Of a DNA stretch of 64,000 nt, positions 7,387-64,000 are shown one piece after another. The stretch's first letter is position 1. Each line of letters begins with the position of its first letter. This DNA is from Gautieria morchelliformis (Eukaryota; Basidiomycota; Agaricomycetes; Gomphales; Gomphaceae), in NCBI GenBank assembly GCA_015179125.1, contig WHVA01000368.1, forward strand, positions 53,310 to 117,309, given 5' to 3'. Made by a program: the position numbers and the translations under genes. The notes beneath the pieces were generated by a model, which was given only the letters and a program-made list of their open reading frames with translations, had not been told where the DNA came from and made no database searches.

Positions 7387-7598
7387 TTGTGTTTTCACAA
7401 AGAAACTTATAAAAACACATAAACAAACCCTGCCAAAAACTTTAAACTTTTTTACAATTTTCTTGCTGAACAAATTCTAACAAAAACATAAAAATTTGTT
7501 AAAGTTTTTTTACATTAAAAACACTAAAAAAAATTGGAATATCTTTACAATTTTTTGAACAGTTTTTCAGACCAGGAAATTTTTATATCCCTCCAGTG

Positions 7599-10500
7599 TC
7601 AGGGGCCAAGCGGAAAGAGGGGCAAACATGGTAAAGGCAAGGGTAAAGAGAAAAGGGGGGCAGTACTGCAAATGCAGCTGGAGTGAACACAGCGGATGAT
7701 GGTGATGATTGTGCCTTCACAACTACGTTCGATGGAGCAACTCTTGCTCAAACAGCTGCATCACAATCTGACAAGGTCACTGAAATCTTGGATACAGGTG
7801 CAAGCACTCACATGTCACCGTATTAAGACCTTTTCACTAATTTTACCCCATTATCCCTCCTAAAACTATCCACGCTGCAGACAAGACCGTGTTTGAAGCT
7901 ATAGGCCGAGGGGATATGAAAATCGAAGTCCCAAATGAAAACAGAATGACTCACATTACACTGAAGAATGTCTTGTATGCCCCCACAATCACTTTTACGC
8001 TCATCTCGATCGGACACTGCGACAAAGCAGGTTTCTATTGCACATTCGGTGGAGGTTTGTGCACTCTTCACAGTGCTACTGGCAAAGTCTATGCCTCAAT
8101 CCTGAAGACCCAAGGCCTTTACCGTTTTAAGCATGACATGAAAATAAGTGCCAATATGACACATACCATCACGTCACTCACAGATTTGCACACTCATATG
8201 GGCCACATCTCCCCTATCATCCCAAAATGTCTAGTCAGTGGTGGGCTAGTCGAAGGCATAGAACTCGACTTATCTGCACCCGCTGAGCTTTGTGAGACAT
8301 GCATAAAGATGAAGATTACAAGAAAGCCCGTACCCAAAGAATGAGTCAGTGAGAAAGCAAAAGTTGAAGGCGAAAAAATACACACAGATGTGTGGGGACC
8401 TGCACAGGTCGAGATGATAGGTGGTAAACATTACTATATGCTCATGAGGCTCTCCTTTTGATGCAAAGGAACATCAAAATGAAAACACTGCAATCGGATC
8501 ATGGAGGTGAGTACCTCAGCAACGAGTTTAAAGCTTACCTTGCCACTCAAGGTACTCAATGTCAACTTACCGTCCACAATACACCAGAACAAAACGGTGT
8601 AGCCAAACGCCTCAATCACACAATTATTGAACATGCCCGTGCCATGCTTCTCAATGCCACTTTGCCTAAGTTCCTTTGGGGCGAAGCACGTAATGCATGC
8701 GACATACCTGAAGAACTGCACTTCCACACATGCACTCCCTGATGAAACCCCCTTTGAAATGGTCGATGAAGTGAAACCAAACTTAGCTGAGTTGCTGAAA
8801 TGGGGAGAAAAGGTTTATGTGAAGGTAGAAGATGTTGCCAAGCTAGATGCTAAAGCAACAGATGGGCGTTGGGTCAGATTCAGCACCGACAGCAAAGGAC
8901 ATGGAATCTATTGGCCAGCAAAATGCAGTGTTACAGTGGAACACAATATTGTTTTTGAAAAGAAAGTACGCACCTCTGTTCCGATTCTCCAGCCCGAGGA
9001 GGAGATTAGACCAAGTAGCAGTCTGGAAAATCCAAGCATACCTTTCAAATCCATTTCCATTCCACTTCCTGCCCCTCCACCTTCCGAACCTGATCCACTA
9101 GAAGACTTTGAAAAGACCCCTGATTCCGACAAGCTAGAAGGACACGGTTTGCGAGTAAAGAAGCCATCAGAATATATACACTGAGTTGTAGAGGGTGTAG
9201 GTACCAGCGATGGTCGTCCCAAAGGCCTATTTTCCCAAAAGGGCTTCAGGTGCTGAAAGAACACACCACTGCTATGTTTTTCGAAGCAGAGAGTGAAGAG
9301 GATGAGGACGAGTTGCCAGCCCTGAGCGTGGATGAAGAGGATGACCCACCATTTTCAATCTTCGATGAATTTGTTGAAGAGATCCCAACCCTGTTTACTG
9401 ACAATGAAGATGAGCCAGATGTTTTTGCCATGCCTGCATGAGTGGATCTTGGAGAACCTGAAACATTGGAGGAGGCGTTACAGAGTGAGAATGCACCAGA
9501 GTGGATGAAAGCGGTGAAGAAAGAACTCAACGTGCTGCATGCTACTGGTACATGGACCATTGTCGAAAGGCCTGAAGATGTAAATATAGTCGACTGCGGA
9601 TGGGTCTTCCGAATTAAGCGCAATGCCCTAGGAAAATCCTCGAGTTTAGAGCTTGGCTTGTTGCCCAAGGATATACGCAGGCATTCAGAGTAGATTATGA
9701 TGAAACATTCTCACCTGTGGCTAGGCTAGAGTCACTCCAGATCATATCTTCACGCGCTGCCAGAAACGACTGGCCTCTCCACCGGATGGATGTCAGTAGT
9801 GTGTACCTCAATGCTCCTCTCACAGAGCCAATTTATATGCACCAGCCACCAAATTTCACCGAGGGAAGGCCAAAGCATGTTTGCCTACTCAAAAGGCATT
9901 ATACGGCCTGAAGCAATCAGGTCACAAATGGTATAAATGTTTGTCACGTGCCTTTTATGACTTTGGCTTCACCCATAGTGCGGCTGATCCTGCTGTGTTT
10001 TATAAACACGCTCATGGCGCACACACCATTGTGGCGGTCGCAGTAGATGACTGAACTATCACAGCCAATGCTAAAAAGCCTATGGCCAATGTAACAGAGC
10101 AGTTAAAATCCATATTTAAGATGAAAAATCTAGGAGACTTATCTTGGCTCTTAGGAATGGAGGTCAAACGAGACCATCAGAAACGTACCATCTCATTTGC
10201 TCAGCATGCCTATATCTACACCATCCTCAGATGTTTCAATCTACAAGACGCAGCATCACTCACAATCCCACTTGATTCACATAGCTTCCTATCCAAATCA
10301 CAATGCCCCTTGACATCACAGCAATTTGAAGACATGTGCAATGTACCCTATCGTGAGGCAGTTGGTTCGCTGATGTCGGTGGCTCTTGCGACGCGACCAG
10401 ATATCACGTTCGCAGTTTCCTACCCCTCACAGTTTATGGAAAATGTTATTTCGTTATTTCATTGCCTTGCCAAAATGGGAAGGACTGGGAGGAGTCTGCG

Positions 10501-19560: not shown

Positions 19561-19649
19561 ACCATCGGGCAGGCAGGACATCGACAGGACACTGGACGTT
19601 ACAACCCTCTCCTGGCCGACGATCCGTCGCGCGCAACTGTAAGGGCAAC

Positions 19650-20110
19650 CCTGGCTGGTTGTGGAGATCACACTACCACACAACTGACAAGGGGAAATCC
19701 AAAGTCTGTATAAATGAACAGAGTATACAAGAGAGGGGATTCTCACCTGACAAGGGGAAATCCAAAGAGAAAAGTCTAAGGACCCCCAATGTCAGTGAGC
19801 CCGTATTATACTACGCTGCGCAGCCAGGGACAACACTTGGCACCCGCCATCAACCCTGCATCCCCCTGACCTCCCTGACCCTTGATTGACCCTTGATGCC
19901 ACCTATTATGCGAGTCGCTTGATTTCCGACACTGTTCCGAGAGTGGAAGTCGGAAATTGGAGTGGAACTGGAAAAGTGAACAGAACCGGTGGAAGTTCTC
20001 CCAGAAGCGGAATCATTTCCAAAAGCGGAGGCGGAGAGGGAATCAGACCCGGAAGCGGAGTCGGAAATGGAGTCGGAACTGGAACTGGAAATGGAAAACA
20101 GGGTGTCCCC
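19650..20110. repeat. GGAA-rich purine tract, possibly gypsy-LTR derived
   Basis: 19930-20105 is an almost uninterrupted series of (C/T)GGAA(A/C/G) hexamer-like units. It also contains a duplicated 'gacaaggggaaatccaaag' (about 19687 and 19748). The CGGAA bias matches the gypsy LTR at 62167-62859 and the coding sequence next to it. I take it as a diverged LTR or internal gypsy piece, without proof. Confidence 0.4.
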
Positions 20111-44042: not shown

Positions 44043-45260
44043 ATGTCCATGATGACCCGTTCCCGCACCCTACGGGGTATCTCCTAACAACAATGTTTCT
44101 CCAAGGCCCCCGACGATTCACCACCATCCCCAGGCATACCCCTCACAGGCCCAGCCGAGCCTAGTAATAAAGGCAAAGATAGGGCTAACCCCAGTGACCC
44201 TTCAGGTGATCCAGGTGATGGCTCTGGATGTTCTGAAAATGATCGGGACCTCCCAAACCTACCACCGGAAGACCTCGGTGACCTCGAGGACAATGAGCTA
44301 ATGCGTCGAATATTTGTAAATCTCGCTAAACCTCACAAACCCAAAGCCCGAGCCAAGGTCAAGGAGCCAGACACTTATGATGGTACTGACCAGGCCAAGC
44401 TTCGCACCTTCTTCCTTCAATGCGTACTCAACTTCAGAGATCGCCCCTCGGCCTTCAGGACTGGGGCATCGAAGGTACAGTATGCTATCTCTTACTTGTC
44501 GGGTTCAGCTCTCCAGTATTTTGAACCTGCGATCCTCAGCAAAGTCCAACCGGAGCCAGGTTGGCTCGAGGACAGGGACAGTTTCAAGGCCAAGCTTGAG
44601 CTCAACTTCGGCCTGTACGACAACGCTGCCCAAGCCAAGATCGACCTCGAGAAGATTGTTATGAAAGAGCACCACAAGGCCACATGATTCTTTATCGACT
44701 TCGCTCAAGCTTCAACTCGGACTCAATGGAACAATGCGGCCCTCCGACACTTTGCGTATCAGCGCCTAGCCAAACGAATCAAGGCCAACCTACTTCGCTT
44801 CCCTCAATTCCGCAGCCTCACCGAGCTTAGGAACTTTGCGCTGGAATGCAACAGCCATTACTGGGAGCGTAAGGAATATGATGCTATGGCCAATGGTCGC
44901 AGCTCCCAGCCTGTGGGCGCCGCTAATCAGTCCAGCAGCAATGCCACTAACAACAATCTGTCTTCCAGTGGTTCTAACAACAACAAGAACCACAACAAGA
45001 CCAACAACAATGGCAAAGGTTCCAACAGCAACTCCTTGAACAACAAGAGCCAGCCTGACATCTCGAGCAAGCTCAGGACAGACGGTAAACTACTTCCTGA
45101 AGAACGCCATGTCGGGTCGACCAAGGCCTTTGCCTGCTCTGCGGCACCAAGGGCCACATGGTCAAGGACTGCCCGAAGAACAAGTCTACCAACAGTAGTG
45201 GTTCTAAAGGTTGGGGAATGAAAACCTCTAATGAGGGAACTTCGGCCTCCATTACGGAGG
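44043..45260 (+). pseudogene. Ty3/gypsy gag with two in-frame stops and a frameshift
   Basis: The frame runs from ATG 44043 (MSMMTRSRTLRG) through TAA 44085-44087 and TGA 44685-44687. Between them it encodes a retrotransposon gag domain (EPDTYDGTDQAKLRTFFLQC, AISYLSGSALQYFEP, WLEDRDSFKAKLELNFG), followed by FFIDFAQASTRTQWN and an Asn/Ser-rich linker. The zinc knuckle CLLCGTKGHMVKDC near 45140 lies in another frame. Gag forms the particle and binds element RNA; this copy is dead. Confidence 0.9.
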
Positions 45261-45289
45261 TGAAAAAATAAGTAGCAACCTCAGAACCA

Positions 45290-46419
45290 CACGATCCGAG
45301 GGTTGCGGTAACCTCACCCGTGTGCTCAGGCTCAGTGACGCTTCGCATTCATTGTCCAAACATTCCCTTAATGTAGATTTAACCTCGCCTTCGCTTCCTA
45401 ACGTCTGGTTTATTTCATTAGTTGACTGCGGGTCTTCTGATTGTTTTATTGAATCCAAATTTGTCCAGAAGTACTCTATGCCTGCTTATCCTGTCTCTCC
45501 TATACCCTTGAAACTATTTGACAGTAGTACTAACACTACCATTACCCAAGCTCTAGACCTCTGTATCTGCTTTCCAACCGGCGAACAACAATGGGTTACC
45601 TTCTACATAACCTCACTCGACTGGAGTTGCTCGGTGGTACTTGGCCATAACTGGCTCACCCGCTACAATCAGTCGATTGACTGGGTATTGGGCAGTATTA
45701 CTTTCAAGACCATTGATTTGACTATGACTCCAGCGACCACAGCAACTTCAGCCCGCTCAGCTTTGGCTAGGACCTCGACTTCACCTACGGCATCTTCGCC
45801 CCCACCTTCTACCTCGCCTCAGACCTCGCCTCCGAAGTTGCAAGCACCTCTCGTTTCCCTAATCAATGCGCCTGCTTTTATGCACGCATCCAGGTTAGAA
45901 GGATCCAAAGTGTTTCAGCTCAACCTGGCTTCGCCTGAGCTCCTCACCGGAGGAGCAACATTGGGAGAAGGCTCCCCCGAGCTTTCTGAGAACATTAAAA
46001 AACATGTTCTTGAAATATATCACAAATTTGCAGATGTGTTCAGCAAAGCACGCGCTGACACTTTAGCTCCCCACCGACCACACGACATCAAGATTAACCT
46101 TGAAGAAGGGACCTCGCCACCTATCAGTCCTATCTACTCCCTCTCTGCCTCTGAGCTCAAGGCACTCCGTGAGTTCATTGATGAGCATTTGAACATCAGT
46201 TTCATCCAACCTTCACGCTTACCTCATGGTGCACTGGTATTGTTTTTCTGCAAAAAAGATGGCTCACTTCGGTTGTGTGTCAACTTCCAAGGTTTAAACA
46301 AAATTTCAAAAAAAGATTGGTATCCATTGCCATTGATTGCTGACTTACACTGGAAAATCACAGAATCCAGGCATATCTTTAATGAGGCCAACATTGTAAG
46401 ATTGGCAAGTAGCCCTTGA
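45290..46419 (+). pseudogene. Ty3/gypsy protease and start of RT, truncated
   Basis: An open frame from about 45322 carries the aspartic protease (LVDCGSSDCFIE, where the usual motif is D-S/T-G-A, and VVLGHNWLTRYN). After a Thr/Pro/Ser linker come the RT entry motifs YHKFADVFSKARADTLAPHR, LKALREFIDEHL and FFCKKDGSLRLCVNFQGLNK, then YPLPLIADL. The catalytic YxDD region, RNase H and integrase are absent: gypsy similarity is lost near 46400. Confidence 0.9.
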
Positions 46420-55891: not shown

Positions 55892-58800
55892 ATGAACAAC
55901 GTCGAGGGCACTGTGACAGTACCGTAAGTCGACGATCGCTTCTCTATTGAGCCAACTGTTCACTCTCTACCCCGAAGTACTCCTGCAGGAATCAAAGTTG
56001 CAGGGAGGACTCTTACGTTTGCGCTGCCTATGGCATACTGACTGTCGCCGATCGACAACAGACCTGAGATGTGATCGCCTTCCCAATGTCGGACTGTTCT
56101 TCAAACGTCCTGGTAACTACTATGTAAAACTCTATGTCGACGAGGATATCAAGAAGACTGCGGTATCGGCGAGAGGCAATACGGCCTCGTGGAATGACTC
56201 GTTCTATTTGTGCGTTTAATTCCAACGTTATTATCTTCATGCGACTTAAATCCACGCCCAGCAAGGGCTTTCATGGGGCTTCCGTATTAAGAATCGAAGT
56301 CTACGGGCGCCGTATCTTTACACGTGATGACTACATAGGCGGCGCAAGGGAAAGGATTGAGCTGCTGCTTGCAGACGGAGCCACTGGAGGTCAGTCCTTT
56401 TCGCTCATCGACGGAATGCACGTGTAATCATCGAACACAGCAGCGGTTGCTCGCACACTGCGTAAATACGATGAGGCAGGGAACATGCATGAGGTTCAGA
56501 CCGTCCTAGAGTTCACCGTTACGTCTTTTGGGATGCAGGAGGCCCAGTTCAGCGAAGCAGTCAGCGGAACGAAAGTGGTCGATAGTATGAACGCTGCGTC
56601 GTCCAGATTTATTGAAGCAGAGTATGTGGTCGACGACGTCATTTCCACCACCAATAATACTGTTATCCCGACAATGGCGGTTTGGGATCCACTCCTGGAC
56701 AAGATCAAGCTCTTTACAGAGATCGTGGTTGGAATCTCCGAGGTATGGTTCAAATGCCCACGGTCTCCCAGGTCATCTCATGTACATTGTTTGCTTGATT
56801 CTAGGTCCATCCTTACGCGAAAATGGCATGGTCTATCCTGTCTATTGCGCACAAGGTAGATCTAGCACCAGCTTGATATACACATCTGACGTCAGGGCAG
56901 ACGATCATTGCTCAAAAAGACCGGGACGATAGCATCAATGAGCTGGCGAAGGTTATTGGAGACACCTATGCGTTTGTCCACTTGGCGGAGCCGTTAAAGC
57001 AAATTGACTCGCAAAGACCAATTATCATAGCCTTGACGAATCAGACGGTAGAGTGCAGTTACTTTATCGCCGACTATGCCAAAAACAAGAACTTCTGTAT
57101 GTTGGACCCATTGTGTCTGGTGGCCATGGCTGATGACTTTTGTTCAGGGAAAAGAACCGCGAAGAATCTAGTGTCAAATGTCGACAGCAAGGTCAAACAA
57201 CACCAGGACATGTTCAACAAGCTCAGGTTGGCGTTACGGGAAAACGCCGTCATCACTCCTGAAATCAGTGTACTACGTGTTCTGGATGTCGTCGGTGATC
57301 TCTGTGAGTTTCTGATTTGGGGCCTTTCCCGAGGCTAATACACCTTGCAACCAGCTGGGGAATTTCAGCTCAATGGCATGCCCTACGCAGCGGGAGCTGG
57401 TTGCGATCCTAATAAAGGCTGTTTGCCGGGTACTCGCGAGAAAGTTATTGGGGAGATCTGTGATTGGGCCAACCAGGATAGCGACGACACCCCCCGGATA
57501 TTTTTCTTGAACGATGTTGCAGGTGCGGGCAAATCTGCAATTGCTCACGAGGTCGCCCGACGATTTCACAGGCTCAAGCGTCTCGGAGCGTCGTACTGCT
57601 TCGACCGCGCTCAGCAGGCAGAACGCTCCCCCAAAAATGTTTTCAGCACAATTGCTCGTAGTCTGGCCGATCTGGACCCACAACGCAGAGCATCGTTATT
57701 GAAAGTGGTTCGGAATCACCGCGAACTTCGGACCACACTCGTGCCTAGTGTGCAGTTCCAGATGTTCATTTTAGACGTCGCCCGTGGGCTAACGACCATC
57801 GGACCAACGGTGATTGTCATTGATGCATTGGATGAGAGCGGAGACGAGCAATCTCGCCAGGCTCTCTTGTCTGTCCTTGGCAACGAAGCAGCACAACTGC
57901 CGTCTAATTTCCATCTTCTTATCACTTCCCGCGCTGAACTAGACATCCAGAACGCCCTTCTTGGGAAGAAGCACGTGCTTTCCAGGTCCATAAAGGAGAT
58001 TGACCCCAACCCCTATGAGGACATTTCCCGCTTTGTGCAAGCGCAACTGGGTAACATTCCGGCCCTCGAGCACAAATGGCCCAACGGTGGCTGGTGTCGA
58101 TTATTAGTCGATAAATCTGAAGGCCTATTTCAATGGGCATCCACGGCTTGCCGATTTATCATAGGTGGGAAGGGTGGTCGCGCAGCTGTTGACCGACTGG
58201 AGGACCTTTTAATCAAGAACCTCAGTGGGATGGATAACCTGTATCTCGGTATCCTCACGCAGATATTCGGGGTTCACGATGACTTCACAGACCGTGTCAG
58301 GCGTCGCTTTCGCCTGGTGATGGGCTGCATGCTTGCCGCCAGAGAACCGCTCTCGATGTCTGCCCTGCAGAAATTATGTAAGGCAGACGACTCGGGTGCC
58401 GAGGTTCATGATATAGTTGGACCTATGGGTGCTTTGCTGAGCCTTCCTTCTCAAAAGTCTGGCACAATCAGTCTGCTACACACATCCTTTCGTGACTTCT
58501 TGACAGATCGCAGCCGGAGTGGACCATACTACATCGACACATCTTTACACCATGATGGCCTTGCTCTCTCATCCTTGCGCGTGATGAGGGAGGAACTTTA
58601 TTTCAACATTTGTCAGCTTGAAACTTCACATCTGCCCAACGACGACGTTATCGACTTGGGAACACGGACCAAGAAGTATATATCCCCACAACTTTCCTAC
58701 TCTTGCCGTTTTTGGGCGGACCATATTCGCGCCACCACCTTTAGCCCGGAAATAGGTGGAAAGGTCATGGAGTTTTTCGAGACTAAGCTACTCTACTGGC

Positions 58801-60967
58801 TAGAGGTTTTAAGTTTGATCAAGAAGGTATCCGATGCATCAGCAGCGCTCTCGTCAATATTGGGCTGGAGTCAGGTGAGTCCCCGAATTGTGATGAGCTC
58901 CGACGTGAGTCTAATGAACTTCAGGATAATGACATTACAGCATTCGTAGCGGATACCCTCAATTTTGTAGCTGCGTTTGGGAGTGTAATCTCTCAGAGTG
59001 CTCCCCATCTCTATTTGTCGGCACTCCCGTTTGCACCTGAAAGGTCGAAAGTAGGCGAGACATACCTCCCACGATTTCCACGACTCCTCCACATCGAGAC
59101 CGGGAAAGCGACGACGTGGCCACGTATTCAAACCGTTCTGGTAGGTCATACCGGTACCGTATCGTCGGTGGCATTCTCGCAGGACGGCAAGCGCATCGTC
59201 TCCGGGTCTGATGACAGGACAATCCGTGTGTGGAATGCAGCCACCGGGGAGCTCATTTCGGCGCCATTTGAAGGTCACACCAATTGGGTCTCGTCGGTGG
59301 CATTCTCGCCGGACGGCAAGCGCATCGTCTCCGGGTCGTATGACAAGACGATCCGTGTGTGGAATGCAGACACCGGGGAGCTCATTTCAGCACCATTCAA
59401 AGGCCACACCGAGTTGGTCACATCGGTGGCGTTCTCGCACGATGGCACGCGCATCGTCTCCGGGTCTTTGGACAAGACAATCCGTGTGTGGAATGCAGAC
59501 ACCGGGGAGCTCATTTCAGCACCATTCGAAGGCCACACCGGGTTGGTCAGGTCGGTGGCGTTCTCGCTGGAGGGCAAGCGCATCGTCTCCGGGTCTTTGG
59601 ACAAGACAATCCGTGTGTGGAATGCAGACACCGGGGAGCTCATTTCAGCACCATTCGAAGGCCACACCGACTCGGTCAGGTCGGTTGCGTTCTCGCACGA
59701 CGGCAAGCGCATTGTGTCCGGGTCTGATGATAAGACGATCCGTTTGTGGAATGCAGACACCGGGGAGTCCATTTCAGGACCATTCGAAGGCCACACCGAC
59801 TGGGTCAGGTCGGTGGCATTCTCGCACGACGGCAAGCGGATCGTCTCCGGGTCCAATGACAAGACGATCCGTGCGTGGAATGCGGACACCGGGGAACTCA
59901 TTTCAGCACCATTTGAAGGCCACACCGACTCGGTCAGGTCGGTGGCGTTCTCGCACGACGGCAAGCGCATAGTCTCCGGGTCTGATGACAAGACGATCCG
60001 TGTGTGGAACTCAGACACCGGGGAGCTCATTTCAACACCATTTCAAGGCCACACGAATTGGGTCTCGTCGGTGACATTCTCGCAGGACGGCAAGCGCATC
60101 GTCTCCGGGTCTTATGACGAGACGATCCGTGTGTGGAATGCAGACACCGGGGAGCTCATTTCAGGACCATTCGAAGGCCACGCCGACTCTGTCAGGTCCG
60201 TGGACTTCTCGCCCGACGGCAAGCGCATCGTCTCCGGGTCTGATGACAACACGATCCGTGTGTGGAATACAGTCACCGGGGAGCTCCTTTCAACACCATT
60301 CGAAGGCCACACCGACTCGGTCAGGTCCGTGGACTTCTCGCCTGACGGCAAGCGCATCGTCTCCGGGTCTTATGATAACACGATCCGTGTGTGGAATGCA
60401 GACACTGGGGAGCTCATTTCAGCACCATTTGAAGGCCACACCAATTGGGTCTCGTCGGTGGCGTTCTCGCCGGACGGCAAGCGCATCGCCTCCGGGTCAT
60501 ATGACAAGACCATCCGTTTGTGGAATGCAGACGCCGGGGAGGTAATTTTGGCACCATTCGAAGGCCACACAGACTCAGTCAGTTCAGTGGCGTTCTCGCA
60601 CGACGGCAGGCGCATCGTCTCAGGGTCTTTGGACACGACAATCCGTGTGTGGAATGCAGACACCGGGGAGGTAATTTCAGGGCCATTCCAAGGCCACACC
60701 GACTCAGTCAGCTCGGTGGTGTTCTCGCACTACGACAAGCGCATTGTCTCCGGGTCTCGTGACAACACGATCCGTGTGTGGAATTCAGACACCGGGGAGC
60801 CCATTTCAGCACCATTTCAAGGCCACACGAATTGGGTCTCGTCGGTGGCGTTCTCGCACCACGGCAAGCGCATTGTCTCCGGGTCTGCCGACAACACGAT
60901 CCGTGTGTGGAATGCAGACACCTTGGAGCTCCTTTCAGCGCCATTCGCAGGTCAGGCTAGTCAGTAG
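55892..60967 (+). CDS. C2-NACHT-WD40 STAND receptor (HET-E/HNWD-like)
   Basis: A multi-exon NLR-like protein. C2 domain: DLRCDRLPNVGLFF, VKLYVDEDIKKTA, NTASWNDSFYF, VLRIEVYG; then a helical STAND N-terminal region (TKVVD, LFTEIVVGISEVHPYAKMAW, RDDSINELAKVIGDTYAFV); NACHT with Walker A DVAGAGKSAIAHEVA near 57520 and Walker B VIVIDALDE near 57815; and 14 WD40 repeats. GT-AG introns: 56210-56261, 56390-56440, 56743-56804, 56856-56900, 57097-57147 (rebuilding FW/KRTAKN), 57304-57354 and 58875-58924. The start (ATG 55892) is shared with the duplicate at 51244; the first intron is unresolved. No stop interrupts the exons from the C2 domain onward. STAND receptors of this type trigger incompatibility cell death on ligand binding by WD40; that role is inferred. 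Confidence 0.9.
59144..60949 (+). repeat. 14 tandem WD40 units of exactly 129 bp
   Basis: Fourteen units of 43 residues (GHT..V.SVAFS.DGKRIVSG then S.D.TIRVWN.DTGE.IS.PF) with no indels. Variation is concentrated: units differ at residues 4-5 (NW, DS, DW, EL, GL), 7 (S/R/T), 13-14, 23 (D/Y/L/N/R/A), 25 and the 41-43 linker, while the framework is near-invariant. Fourteen units would make two seven-bladed propellers. High identity at the DNA level favours unequal exchange and repeat shuffling. Confidence 0.97.
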
Positions 60968-61779: not shown

Positions 61780-62166
61780 GCTATGAGTGGGGACACACTA
61801 TACTTGGGGACAGGCACACTATGCTTGGGGGACACGGTACAACAAGAGACACACTACACACCCTATGCATGGGGAAAACTCTACAAACAAGGGACATTCT
61901 ACACATGCTATACTTGGGGGACATGTTATGCATGGGGGACACACTTTGCACGCTATACTTGAGGGAGATGCTACACATGTGGACACACTATGCATGGGGG
62001 ACACACATGCTATAATTTAGGGATATGCTATGTTTGGGGACATGCTACAAACCAGGGACACACTACGCACACTATACTTGAGGGACACACTATGCATGGG
62101 GGACACACTGCATGTGGGGACACACTATGCATGGAGGACATGCTATGCACACTATAATTGGGGACA
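61780..62166. repeat. Imperfect minisatellite (ggggacacactatgcat units)
   Basis: About twenty degenerate units of roughly 16-22 bp, of the type gggggacacactatgcatg, with frequent 'actatacttg' variants. The array ends exactly at the first base of the LTR at 62167. Confidence 0.85.
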
Positions 62167-62859
62167 TGTTACGTATCGAAATTTCCACTAAGTCGGAACT
62201 GGAAAGGACAGCGGCTTCAACTTATAGGTTGCGCCCCCAATGAACTATCGTCCTAGGAATTTCGGAAATGAGCCGGAAGTTGGAAAGTACTGGACCAGAG
62301 GTTTGGTCGGAACTTGAGTCGGAACTGAGGCGGAAGGCGGAAGACGGAAGGCTGAGAGAGAGACTGAGATCTTGCTAGACTCGCTGTGCTAAGAACAGGA
62401 GATGGAGCGAAGGAAATCAAGTATCGAAGGTGATTATCTGATTGCAGAATAACAGACATACATGAGGGGGTTTTTATACAAAGCGCAGAGCAACAAGTAA
62501 TGGTGTTGTACTAAGCAAATTCCGGAGGAAGCGGAAGTCGAGTACAATGTGTGGGAACTAACTAATTGGGAACAATGGGACTACAAGGGGGGTTCAAGGT
62601 AAGGTAGAACAATAGCAAAGAACAAGGGGTCGGGAAAACATATCTGACAACGAACTACAAGGGTGACCGGATATATGGTTTTGATGAATGGCGAGGTAGA
62701 TCCGGTGGGTCCGAGTAATAGAGTCGAAAGAACAAGGGAAATGTACAGGGGGCGGAATGGCGGAAATGTCGGAGGGGCGGAACGTGTGGCGGAACTATTG
62801 GAGAGGCGGAATGTATGGCGGAACTGAGGGTCGGAAGTTGGAAATGAACGGTCGTAACA
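62167..62859 (-). repeat. Ty3/gypsy 3' LTR (element on the minus strand)
   Basis: tgttacg...cgtaaca ends enclose 693 bp. On the minus strand the LTR is preceded by a polypurine tract (agaagggagatac, 62872-62860). The element body therefore lies to the right, beyond the window except for the first about 1.1 kb. The sequence before the LTR matches that before the LTR at 6107. The LTR is packed with GGCGGAA/TCGGAA motifs. Confidence 0.78.
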
Positions 62860-62982
62860 GTATCTCCCTTCTAAGGTCGAGCCCCGCGAGACCACAAGTC
62901 GGAATCACGTGACCTGTGAACAAACGCGTCGGAGTTTTGAAATATAGGCTGAAAGACAAACACGTCTTCTCTCTATTCCATC

Positions 62983-64000
62983 ATGAGTACTTCAGTCGAT
63001 TTCTCTAAAATGTCCAGTGCCGAGATGAAGCAGCACTTTGCTGATATTCTTGCGCAGAAGGAACTGGCCGAGAAGCGCGAGGCCGAGGAAGCCGCGCGGA
63101 AAGAGAGGGAGCGGCTGGAGGAGCAGCGCAAGGAACTGGAGCGTCGGGAGCAGGAACGGAAGGAGAAGGAGGAGCGTGACCGTAAGCGTCGCGAGGAGGA
63201 GTCGCGCGTCCGTGAAGAACAACGGAAACGGGATGCGGCCGAAAAGGCTGCGGAAGAAAAGGCCGTGGCGGAAAAGGCAGGGAAGTTCCGGGTGAGTCGG
63301 AAATGTCGTGGGGAGGTTCCGGAGCTCACAGAGAACTGCCAGAGAGTTGCCGATTCCGAGGGGGAATCGGAAGCGGAAAGCACGCCGACTCCAGAGGGCA
63401 AGGGGAAGCAAAAAGAAAGTGCTCCCATGCCGAACGTAGTTGAGGAGCGGAAACGGAGGGCGGACGAGTTCCAGCAGGCTCGGAAAGAGAAGCTGGCTCG
63501 GATACTGGAGTTGCGAGAGCTGGGGCCGGAAAATCCTGCGACCCGGAAAAGGAAGACCAGGGACGGTGAGGAGGAGAAGGCTCCTTGCGATACGTGCGAG
63601 GTCAAGGGCCTGGAGTGCGTGTGGTCGGAAAATCCGCGGGAGACGGCCTGCGAACGGTGCCGGGACAAGAAGTGCCGTTGCGTGGTGGATGGGTGTGCCG
63701 CGAGGGTGGAGCGGAAACGGCGCAGGGTTGAGACCGAGGGGCCTGAAACCCCCAAGTCAAAACCGGGACCAAGCGGAAGGAAGGCGGAAGGATTTCCGGT
63801 GACCGGGACGTCTGAGGCAGCGGTGCTGAACCGCTTCAGCATGGCGTCTCCGTTGCTAGACATCGCGGAGTCGCTGAGGGGAATCCGGAAAACCCAACGC
63901 GGGATCCGGAAACTGCTGACGGATATGGCGGTGGTTCAGGAACAGCAGTTGCTGTCGTTCCAGAACCAGATGACCGTCATGTCGGCGGTCCTGGAGCAGT
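62983..64000 (+). CDS. Antisense ORF of the gypsy element: coiled coil plus Zn2Cys6-spaced cluster (runs off the end)
   Basis: ATG at 62983 opens a frame that stays open to the window end (at least 339 codons). Residues about 15-110 are an extremely charged K/E/R heptad region (long coiled coil). Residues 202-238 hold cysteines spaced CX2CX6CX10CX2CX6C (C202, C205, C212, C223, C226, C233, with extra C231 and C238), the spacing of fungal Zn(II)2Cys6 DNA-binding clusters, followed by basic RKRRR. The C-terminal part is again helical. It is divergent from the gypsy element: its start is 124 bp from the LTR and it reads away from it. A shorter ORF in the same position occurs at 5696-6007. A regulatory protein, or a host gene captured by the element, are both possible. 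Confidence 0.7.
   Translation, partial: MSTSVDFSKMSSAEMKQHFADILAQKELAEKREAEEAARKERERLEEQRKELERREQERKEKEERDRKRREEESRVREEQRKRDAAEKAAEEKAVAEKAGKFRVSRKCRGEVPELTENCQRVADSEGESEAESTPTPEGKGKQKESAPMPNVVEERKRRADEFQQARKEKLARILELRELGPENPATRKRKTRDGEEEKAPCDTCEVKGLECVWSENPRETACERCRDKKCRCVVDGCAARVERKRRRVETEGPETPKSKPGPSGRKAEGFPVTGTSEAAVLNRFSMASPLLDIAESLRGIRKTQRGIRKLLTDMAVVQEQQLLSFQNQMTVMSAVLEQ

Follow-up and report, generated by a model that had tools for sequence, protein, structure and literature searches.

An antisense cysteine-cluster gene and a dispersed CGGAA motif in a Gautieria morchelliformis chromovirus: a candidate system of self-recognition

Results

An Antisense Gene between pol and the 3′ LTR

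The subject of this report is a 64,000-nt stretch of the genome of the basidiomycete Gautieria morchelliformis (assembly GCA_015179125.1, contig WHVA01000368.1, positions 53,310–117,309; herein referred to as the window), at whose right edge a long plus-strand open reading frame (ORF) lies beside the polypurine tract and 3′ long terminal repeat (LTR) of a minus-strand gypsy retrotransposon (table 1). A preliminary description of the sequence had noticed this arrangement, which we find both in the window and in copies of the element elsewhere in the genome, where the ORF is a gene antisense to gag and pol in an element rich in the pentamer CGGAA. The right edge of the window coincides with the end of its contig (C413) and the antisense ORF runs into both; because window and contig end together, gag and pol are invisible in the window. 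The genome searched was the 122-Mb assembly of 1,113 contigs.

We compared 12 copies of the element at a length of 10 kb (L031, L033, L035, L037–L039, and L041–L046), which were picked by their antisense ORF and not by pol; the remaining four of the 16 stretches taken at this length are neighboring DNA. All 12 share one order, namely an LTR, the antisense gene, pol and gag on the strand opposite to that gene, and a second LTR (incomplete in L033 and cut by the end of the stretch in L046), and the whole element measures ~8 kb in these other copies. The opposite strand of L042, the copy in which domains were tested, encodes a Gag of 497 amino acids (aa) and a Pol of 1,257 aa, in which Retrotrans_gag, Ty3_capsid, RVP_2, RVT_1, RNase H, H2C2, SH3_Tf2-1, and Chromo all exceed their Pfam cut-offs, the integrase core rve falls narrowly under its own (32.4 vs. 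32.6), and the gag zinc knuckles also remain below. By its domains, LTRs, and polypurine tract the element is a Ty3/gypsy chromovirus, herein called family A. Inverted LTR ends and the polypurine tract are present in all eight LTR pairs examined, and a 5-bp target-site duplication (flank repeat) accompanies six of them, the exceptions being L037 and L044, whose LTRs differ most. The two LTRs of a copy are 97–100% identical at aligned bases in these eight pairs, and the family A copies are therefore young; pol is a single open frame of 1,253–1,257 codons in 3 of the 12 (L042, L045, and L046) and is broken in the others.

The position of the ORF is equally regular. An LTR lies immediately upstream of it in all 18 flanks examined (12 young copies and 6 diverged ones), and when 116 of the at least 123 ORF places in the genome were set against 86 gag places, gag was downstream and on the opposite strand in 22 of the 22 pairs <14 kb apart, 18 of which are spaced by 3.96–4.26 kb. 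A plus-strand element with the ORF as its first gene was also considered and is ruled out, gag-pol sitting on the opposite strand.

The Antisense Frame Is Under Coding Constraint

None of the first 31 listed among the at least 123 matching places of the antisense ORF contains an internal stop, and in five copies the frame is open for 415–424 codons (401 aa counted from the ATG). When one young copy and six diverged ones are aligned by codon, the ratio of nonsynonymous to synonymous substitution rates (dN/dS) is 0.16–0.37 for all 21 pairs in the frame of the antisense gene, as against 0.62–2.25 in four other frames and 0.29–0.60 in the shadow frame, all five of which carry stops. Since the diverged copies were chosen among stop-free matches, their lack of stops is partly selected, whereas their dN/dS is not; the contrast between frames rules out a chance open frame. 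One diverged copy, L048, seems frame-shifted right at its start. Single-base variants among the 12 young copies comprise 48 synonymous, 35 nonsynonymous, and 0 stop changes in the antisense gene (49, 23, and 1 in gag; 132, 49, and 3 in pol), so that constraint on the gene, if a little weaker than on gag and pol, has continued into recent time. The antisense ORF is thus almost certainly a real coding gene, as the preliminary description had supposed; of the outcomes named there as contrary, homologs mostly away from LTRs and dN/dS near 1, neither was found in the copies examined.

Identity in the antisense gene is decoupled from that in the rest of the element. On three contigs (C131, C274, and C284), Gag is 95–98% identical to that of L042, yet the antisense proteins are only 70–79% identical to that of the window, and LTR-plus-leader sequence 90–96% identical to the window's sits beside antisense genes at a synonymous divergence (dS) of 0.46–0.99 from the young copy. 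The gene and the remainder of the element seem to have separate histories, as would be expected if elements had swapped variants of the antisense gene.

A Zinc Cluster-Like Region with Its Halves Exchanged

Full-length antisense proteins were available from 29 of 36 loci (23 near-identical and 6 diverged), the seven left out being L027, which is without the start motif, and L001, L006, L012, L028, L029, and L030, which are cut or truncated or have an altered end. The six cysteines of the putative zinc cluster are invariant in all 29, as is a seventh cysteine, and an eighth nearby, Cys 231, is replaced by Arg in 6. Their spacing follows the Zn2Cys6 pattern (CX2CX6CXnCX2CX6–8C) in every full copy, and the exact form reported from the window beforehand, CX2CX6CX10CX2CX6C, was read correctly.

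The assignment to fungal binuclear zinc clusters made on that basis holds in part: the spacing supports it, as does a weak, half-swapped match to LAC9/Gal4, and the Pfam Zn2Cys6 model (PF00172, Zn_clus) does not, its curated cut-off being reached by none of the seven proteins compared (best 16.8 bits, 21 needed). The best match of a zinc-region profile in the PDB is LAC9 (CD2-LAC9), which we take to be the Kluyveromyces counterpart of Gal4, with the halves exchanged and at a nonsignificant E of 0.63; in this weak alignment the second half of the family A cluster pairs with the first of LAC9, and the first with the second. The second cluster half of L049 aligns, again weakly, to positions 1–13 of the Zn_clus profile, and by these weak alignments the family A protein lacks the Zn2Cys6 order in which the basic half precedes the other. 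Foldseek, run on a low-confidence model, placed GAL4 first and LEU3 seventh of 11 matches, none significant, and VIA-align reported nothing. In the AlphaFold model of a homologous piece the predicted local distance difference test (pLDDT) score exceeds 90 over about residues 302–351 and is lower on either side (whole-model mean 62); the long C-terminal helix predicted there may possibly serve dimerization. The N-terminal coiled coil of the preliminary description is better called coiled-coil-like, being drawn from Glu/Arg/Lys composition only. We read the fold as a putative half-swapped zinc cluster with a dimerization helix, and the protein probably binds DNA. Zn2Cys6 proteins read CGG triplets, which in Gal4 are contacted by Lys18 of an N-terminal zinc cluster.

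CGGAA Is Concentrated in the LTR, gag, pol, and the Antisense Gene

CGGAA is the most over-represented pentamer of the element (115 vs. 18 expected on the antisense-gene strand; 30 vs. 9 on the opposite strand), at a density 11.5-fold that of the host window with strands pooled, and the host window is itself not enriched (44 vs. 56 in one shuffle). The LTR alone holds 16 sites on the antisense-gene strand and 1 reversed, in two clusters (table 1) and at single positions (62194 and 62532); 1.74 would be expected, and none of 1,000 dinucleotide shuffles reached 16. The two clusters flank the predicted start of the gag-pol RNA, and cluster 2 is upstream of that start and of the antisense ATG alike. 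Six diverged LTR-plus-leader stretches hold 12–16 sites each.

The excess extends into coding DNA. Against shuffles of synonymous codons, TTCCG occurs 47 times in pol (15.0 expected) and 13 times in gag (3.9), and CGGAA 22 times in the antisense gene (10.5); CGGAA/TTCCG is the top pentamer by this measure in all three intact pols, and codon usage or amino acid content as the cause of the motif is ruled out. Genome-wide, close CGGAA triplets number 13,955, as against 1,000 for the reversed pattern, a control that lacks CpG; among 53 triplet words, all on the first contig listed, 48 match family A with at most three mismatches, 2 match family C (described below), and 3 match neither. Other gypsy pieces (L034, L040:5783–8129, and window positions 44121–46347, a gypsy gag-pol stretch) carry 0–0.9 CGGAA per kb per strand. 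The LTRs of L034, which is another gypsy (944–1322 and 7529–7987), contain tandem 10–20-bp GGAA repeats with some CGGAA, and its genes are not enriched. Retention of TTCCG between L042 and the decayed L032 (0.59 vs. 0.55 for similar words; 0.85 vs. 0.70 in the reverse direction) was not used as evidence, many of the differences being of the CpG-decay type.

Related Families with Another Motif or without the Gene

Family B was found as the relative into which one family A copy is inserted. Its pol is 65–84% identical to that of family A in reverse transcriptase, RNase H, integrase, and chromodomain pieces, 47% in the protease, and its gag 37%. Between pol and the LTR it, too, carries an antisense ORF with paired cysteine motifs (CX2CX6CX15CX2CX6C), whose protein has no clear similarity to that of family A. 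The gene has 156 matches in the genome, stands tail-to-tail with pol for 91 of 150 chromodomain matches (median gap 124 bp), and is antisense in 95 of the 96 pairs <5 kb apart; L059:790–835 is a candidate 46-nt GT-AG intron of this gene in antisense orientation. The top pentamer of family B by shuffles is CGAGG (57 vs. 13.4; in the LTR 9 vs. 1.6, reached by 0 of 1,000), with CCGAG slightly above it by fold over the host window. Over synonymous shuffles the excess is modest in gag-pol (27 vs. 14.8 summed over five pieces, one of which shows none) and stands at 17 versus 9.4 in the antisense exon. Each LTR holds the motif of the other family at chance level (1 and 2 sites). The family B result rests on one old copy and is weaker than that for family A. 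Lys 79 of alignment A1, which presumably corresponds to Gal4 Lys18, is invariant in all ten family A sequences and gives way to Ser in the single sequence from family B, a replacement that fits the different motifs of the two families.

Short pieces of the family A and family B antisense proteins recur in two annotated Gautieria proteins, P0001 and P0002; in P0001 the shared piece forms the beginning, and the remainder is, as judged by eye, syntaxin-like. Protein searches, confined to proteins sharing exact words, returned nothing beyond these two models, and neither a scan of prokaryote genomes for homologs of the antisense protein nor an NCBIfam search with it led anywhere.

Family C, a gypsy element with a pol 38% identical to that of family A, gives 150 or more matches at 96–100%. 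Beyond its pol stop it has only 262–266 bp in common with the four other places at which this DNA occurs, which we took as the end of the element, and there is therefore seemingly no room for an antisense gene; CGGAA is absent from this stretch. The DNA found downstream of the family C pol recurs at window positions 19638–19908, there without an adjoining chromodomain.

LTR, Leader, and Neighboring Features

The sequence AATCAGATAAT, which we infer to be the start of the gag-pol RNA, has TATAAAAA about 35 nt upstream and no exact match in L042 among the five copies checked. It is complementary to a stretch beginning 2 nt inside the 5′ LTR (about 7989–7999 in L031), and self-priming of the kind used by Tf1, a self-priming element, is possible; a TGG tRNA-type primer site was not found just inside the 5′ LTR. 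In the leader, six of the seven aligned copies retain CACGTG, and the weak TATA-like box of the window (AATATA, 62941) is missing from the six diverged ones. The element is adjoined by a NACHT/NPHP3-type NLR-like (NOD-like receptor-like) gene at 57339–60967, whose 14 WD40 repeats are each 129 bp long and mostly 82–89% alike, and the DNA beside the LTR (61780–62160) consists of degenerate short repeats resembling ACACACTATGCATGGGGGACA.

Table 1. Features of the family A element at the right edge of the window.
Feature	Position	Strand	Basis
3′ LTR, 693 bp, TGTTACG...CGTAACA ends	62167..62859	-	pairs as LTRs in extended copies
CGGAA cluster 1, 7 sites	62263..62349	+	within predicted R-U5
AATCAGATAAT, 11 nt, predicted 5′ end of gag-pol RNA	62433..62443	-	both LTRs, 4 of 5 copies
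CGGAA cluster 2, 7 sites	62753..62836	+	within predicted U3
Polypurine tract CCTTAGAAGGGAGATAC (minus-strand reading)	62860..62876	-	sequence; 8 of 8 copies, one with a single-base change
Leader, 123 bp, LTR to antisense ATG	62860..62982	+	alignment of 7 copies
Antisense ORF, residues 1–339 of about 401	62983..64000	+	ATG at 62983, open to last base
Glu/Arg/Lys-rich N-terminal stretch, coiled-coil-like	63022..63312	+	composition only
Cysteine cluster CX2CX6CX10CX2CX6C (C202, C205, C212, C223, C226, C233)	63586..63681	+	exact spacing
Start of predicted long C-terminal helix (residues 278–375 by homology)	63814..64000	+	AlphaFold, homologous piece

Discussion

We hypothesize that family A encodes a protein that recognizes the DNA of its own element. 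Transcription of the antisense gene would start in or near the 3′ LTR and run inward, opposite to gag-pol, and its product would bind DNA as a dimer and carry a Gal4-like zinc cluster with swapped halves. This protein would recognize CGGAA in the pair of clusters that each LTR holds and at the sites scattered over gag, pol, and its own gene, would coat the DNA of the element, and would either prevent silencing of the LTR promoter or activate it, the element thereby recognizing and de-repressing its own copies. On the sequence evidence, the odds that the antisense protein binds CGGAA of its own element seem to us somewhat better than even, and given such binding we see an even chance that the outcome would be anti-silencing or activation and not something else. 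Action of the protein on its own LTR, which the preliminary description had suggested, appears more plausible in view of the CGGAA array, against which stands the sharing of the motif by family C.

Several results weigh against self-recognition. The coding pieces of family C are as rich in CGGAA as those of family A, and on both strands; family C may exploit the family A protein, or CGGAA may belong to a host factor. The CGGAA sites of the LTR are no more conserved than other pentamers, and a repeat-built host gene also yields a large shuffle excess, so that such excesses can have other causes. CGAGG, in turn, is somewhat raised in family A genes and in one control gypsy. The first three of these results therefore limit our confidence, and we put the chance that the antisense protein recognizes CGGAA in its own element, and that this has a regulatory effect of some kind, slightly below even.

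The strongest competing explanation accepts the antisense gene as real and holds the CGGAA array to be unrelated to it, a host factor shared by several gypsies or a sequence bias of active gypsies being responsible. The presence of the motif in family C, apparently without the gene, and the ordinary conservation of the LTR sites would both follow from it; however, the related family B pairs a different top motif with a different antisense gene, the three other gypsy pieces have at most 0.9 sites per kb per strand, the host window is not enriched, and neither codon usage nor amino acid content can explain an excess over synonymous shuffles. We regard this explanation as unlikely, if by no means negligible. 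Alternatively, the protein could be a classical activator or repressor of the LTR alone, with the sites in gag and pol as by-products. The placement of the clusters around the predicted gag-pol start, with one upstream of the antisense ATG, suits such a role, but gag and pol each lie about three-fold above synonymous expectation, which promoter control alone would not need, and we think it improbable. That UUCCG acts in RNA, as a packaging or binding signal for Gag or the antisense protein, would account for the strong strand bias of family A (115 vs. 30) and sits poorly with the occurrence of the family C motif on both strands; we give it little credence. Still less can be said for the antisense transcript acting as such, by forming a double strand with gag-pol RNA that feeds or dampens silencing: a role of this kind is discussed for plant elements in the accessible part of PMC7264820, but the codon-level constraint and invariant cysteines speak against it. 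An accident of GC-rich sequence, for which one might cite the two minus-strand frames, 320 and 254 aa long, that open here too, is dismissed by the stops in every other frame of the codon alignments and by the dN/dS contrast.

Returning to self-recognition, CGGAA offers a candidate ligand for the antisense protein, and family B, with another predicted specificity, serves as a built-in control. If this reading is right, retroelements evolve sequence-specific self-recognition, and such an arrangement can be parasitized. A broader and more tentative proposal, which we hold less firmly than self-recognition within family A, is that the antisense cysteine-cluster genes of fungal LTR retrotransposons are exchangeable, each matched to its own dispersed motif (CGGAA or CGAGG), and would constitute a self-recognition code that arose independently of VANC, operates in LTR elements, extends into the codons of gag and pol, and is exploited by the compact, gene-less family C.

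Among DNA-binding proteins, Gal4 and LAC9 resemble the family A protein in their six cysteines (CX2CX6C...CX2CX6C), a basic CxRCRxKKxxC half, and a CGG-containing motif. The family A protein differs from them in that its halves are swapped, it falls below the Pfam cut-off, and the cluster is internal in the protein.

The preliminary description stated that no fungal antisense gene of this type had been characterized, which is too strong because brtn is in print. This antisense gene of the Boty Ty3/gypsy elements of Botrytis cinerea was reportedly described by Zhao and colleagues in 2011 (in Virology, 417:248). As far as the accessible parts of these sources go, brtn is a published antisense gene of Botrytis Boty elements (title cited in PMC7264820; also PMC8365987), a Boty-like element has gag, reverse transcriptase, integrase, a chromodomain, and brtn (PMC4227169), and a BRTN-similar transcript has been reported from Monilinia (PMC5987419). 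Boty with brtn resembles family A in being a fungal gypsy element with an extra antisense gene, but belongs to a different phylum, and the likeness is drawn from published descriptions. The plant aORF-3R genes (gene23 of Grande, RIRE2, TRP28 of Retand) are likewise antisense and lie between pol and the 3′ LTR. According to the portions available of PMC7264820 and PMC11963269, they are retained in most copies of some families and proposed to be nuclear or DNA-binding regulators, TRP28 is reported from flowering plants only, and the roles of LTR-retrotransposon antisense genes are called unknown; unlike in family A, neither a zinc cluster nor a paired element-wide motif is described in those portions. 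The word "antisense" does not occur in the available text of a survey of fungal chromoviruses (PMC2864245), and our literature search, which most subscription papers lay outside, found no antisense gene of the zinc-cluster kind among basidiomycete retroelements and none with a matching element-wide motif.

The closest functional analogy is the VANC/VANDAL system of Arabidopsis, in which an element-encoded protein likewise goes with a short motif accumulated in the element (PMC5735166 and PMC10398659, each in the part available). Such a concentrated motif is found in family A, but family C shares CGGAA; this in turn has a parallel in the unrelated AT9TSD1, which shares the motifs of VANC6, and the VANC21 and VANC6 motifs differ from one another (PMC5735166, available part). 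VANDALs differ in being of another transposon class with motifs in noncoding tandem repeats (same part of PMC5735166), and in what is accessible of this literature the binding and methylation loss caused by VANC are experimentally shown, whereas family A is known from sequence and has its motifs in coding DNA also. We suggest that the family A system may work like VANC and claim no relation to it. Antisense genes at the position between pol and the 3′ LTR are thus known from plants and have a fungal precedent in brtn; what appears to be new in family A is the combination of a zinc cluster-like protein with a matching motif.
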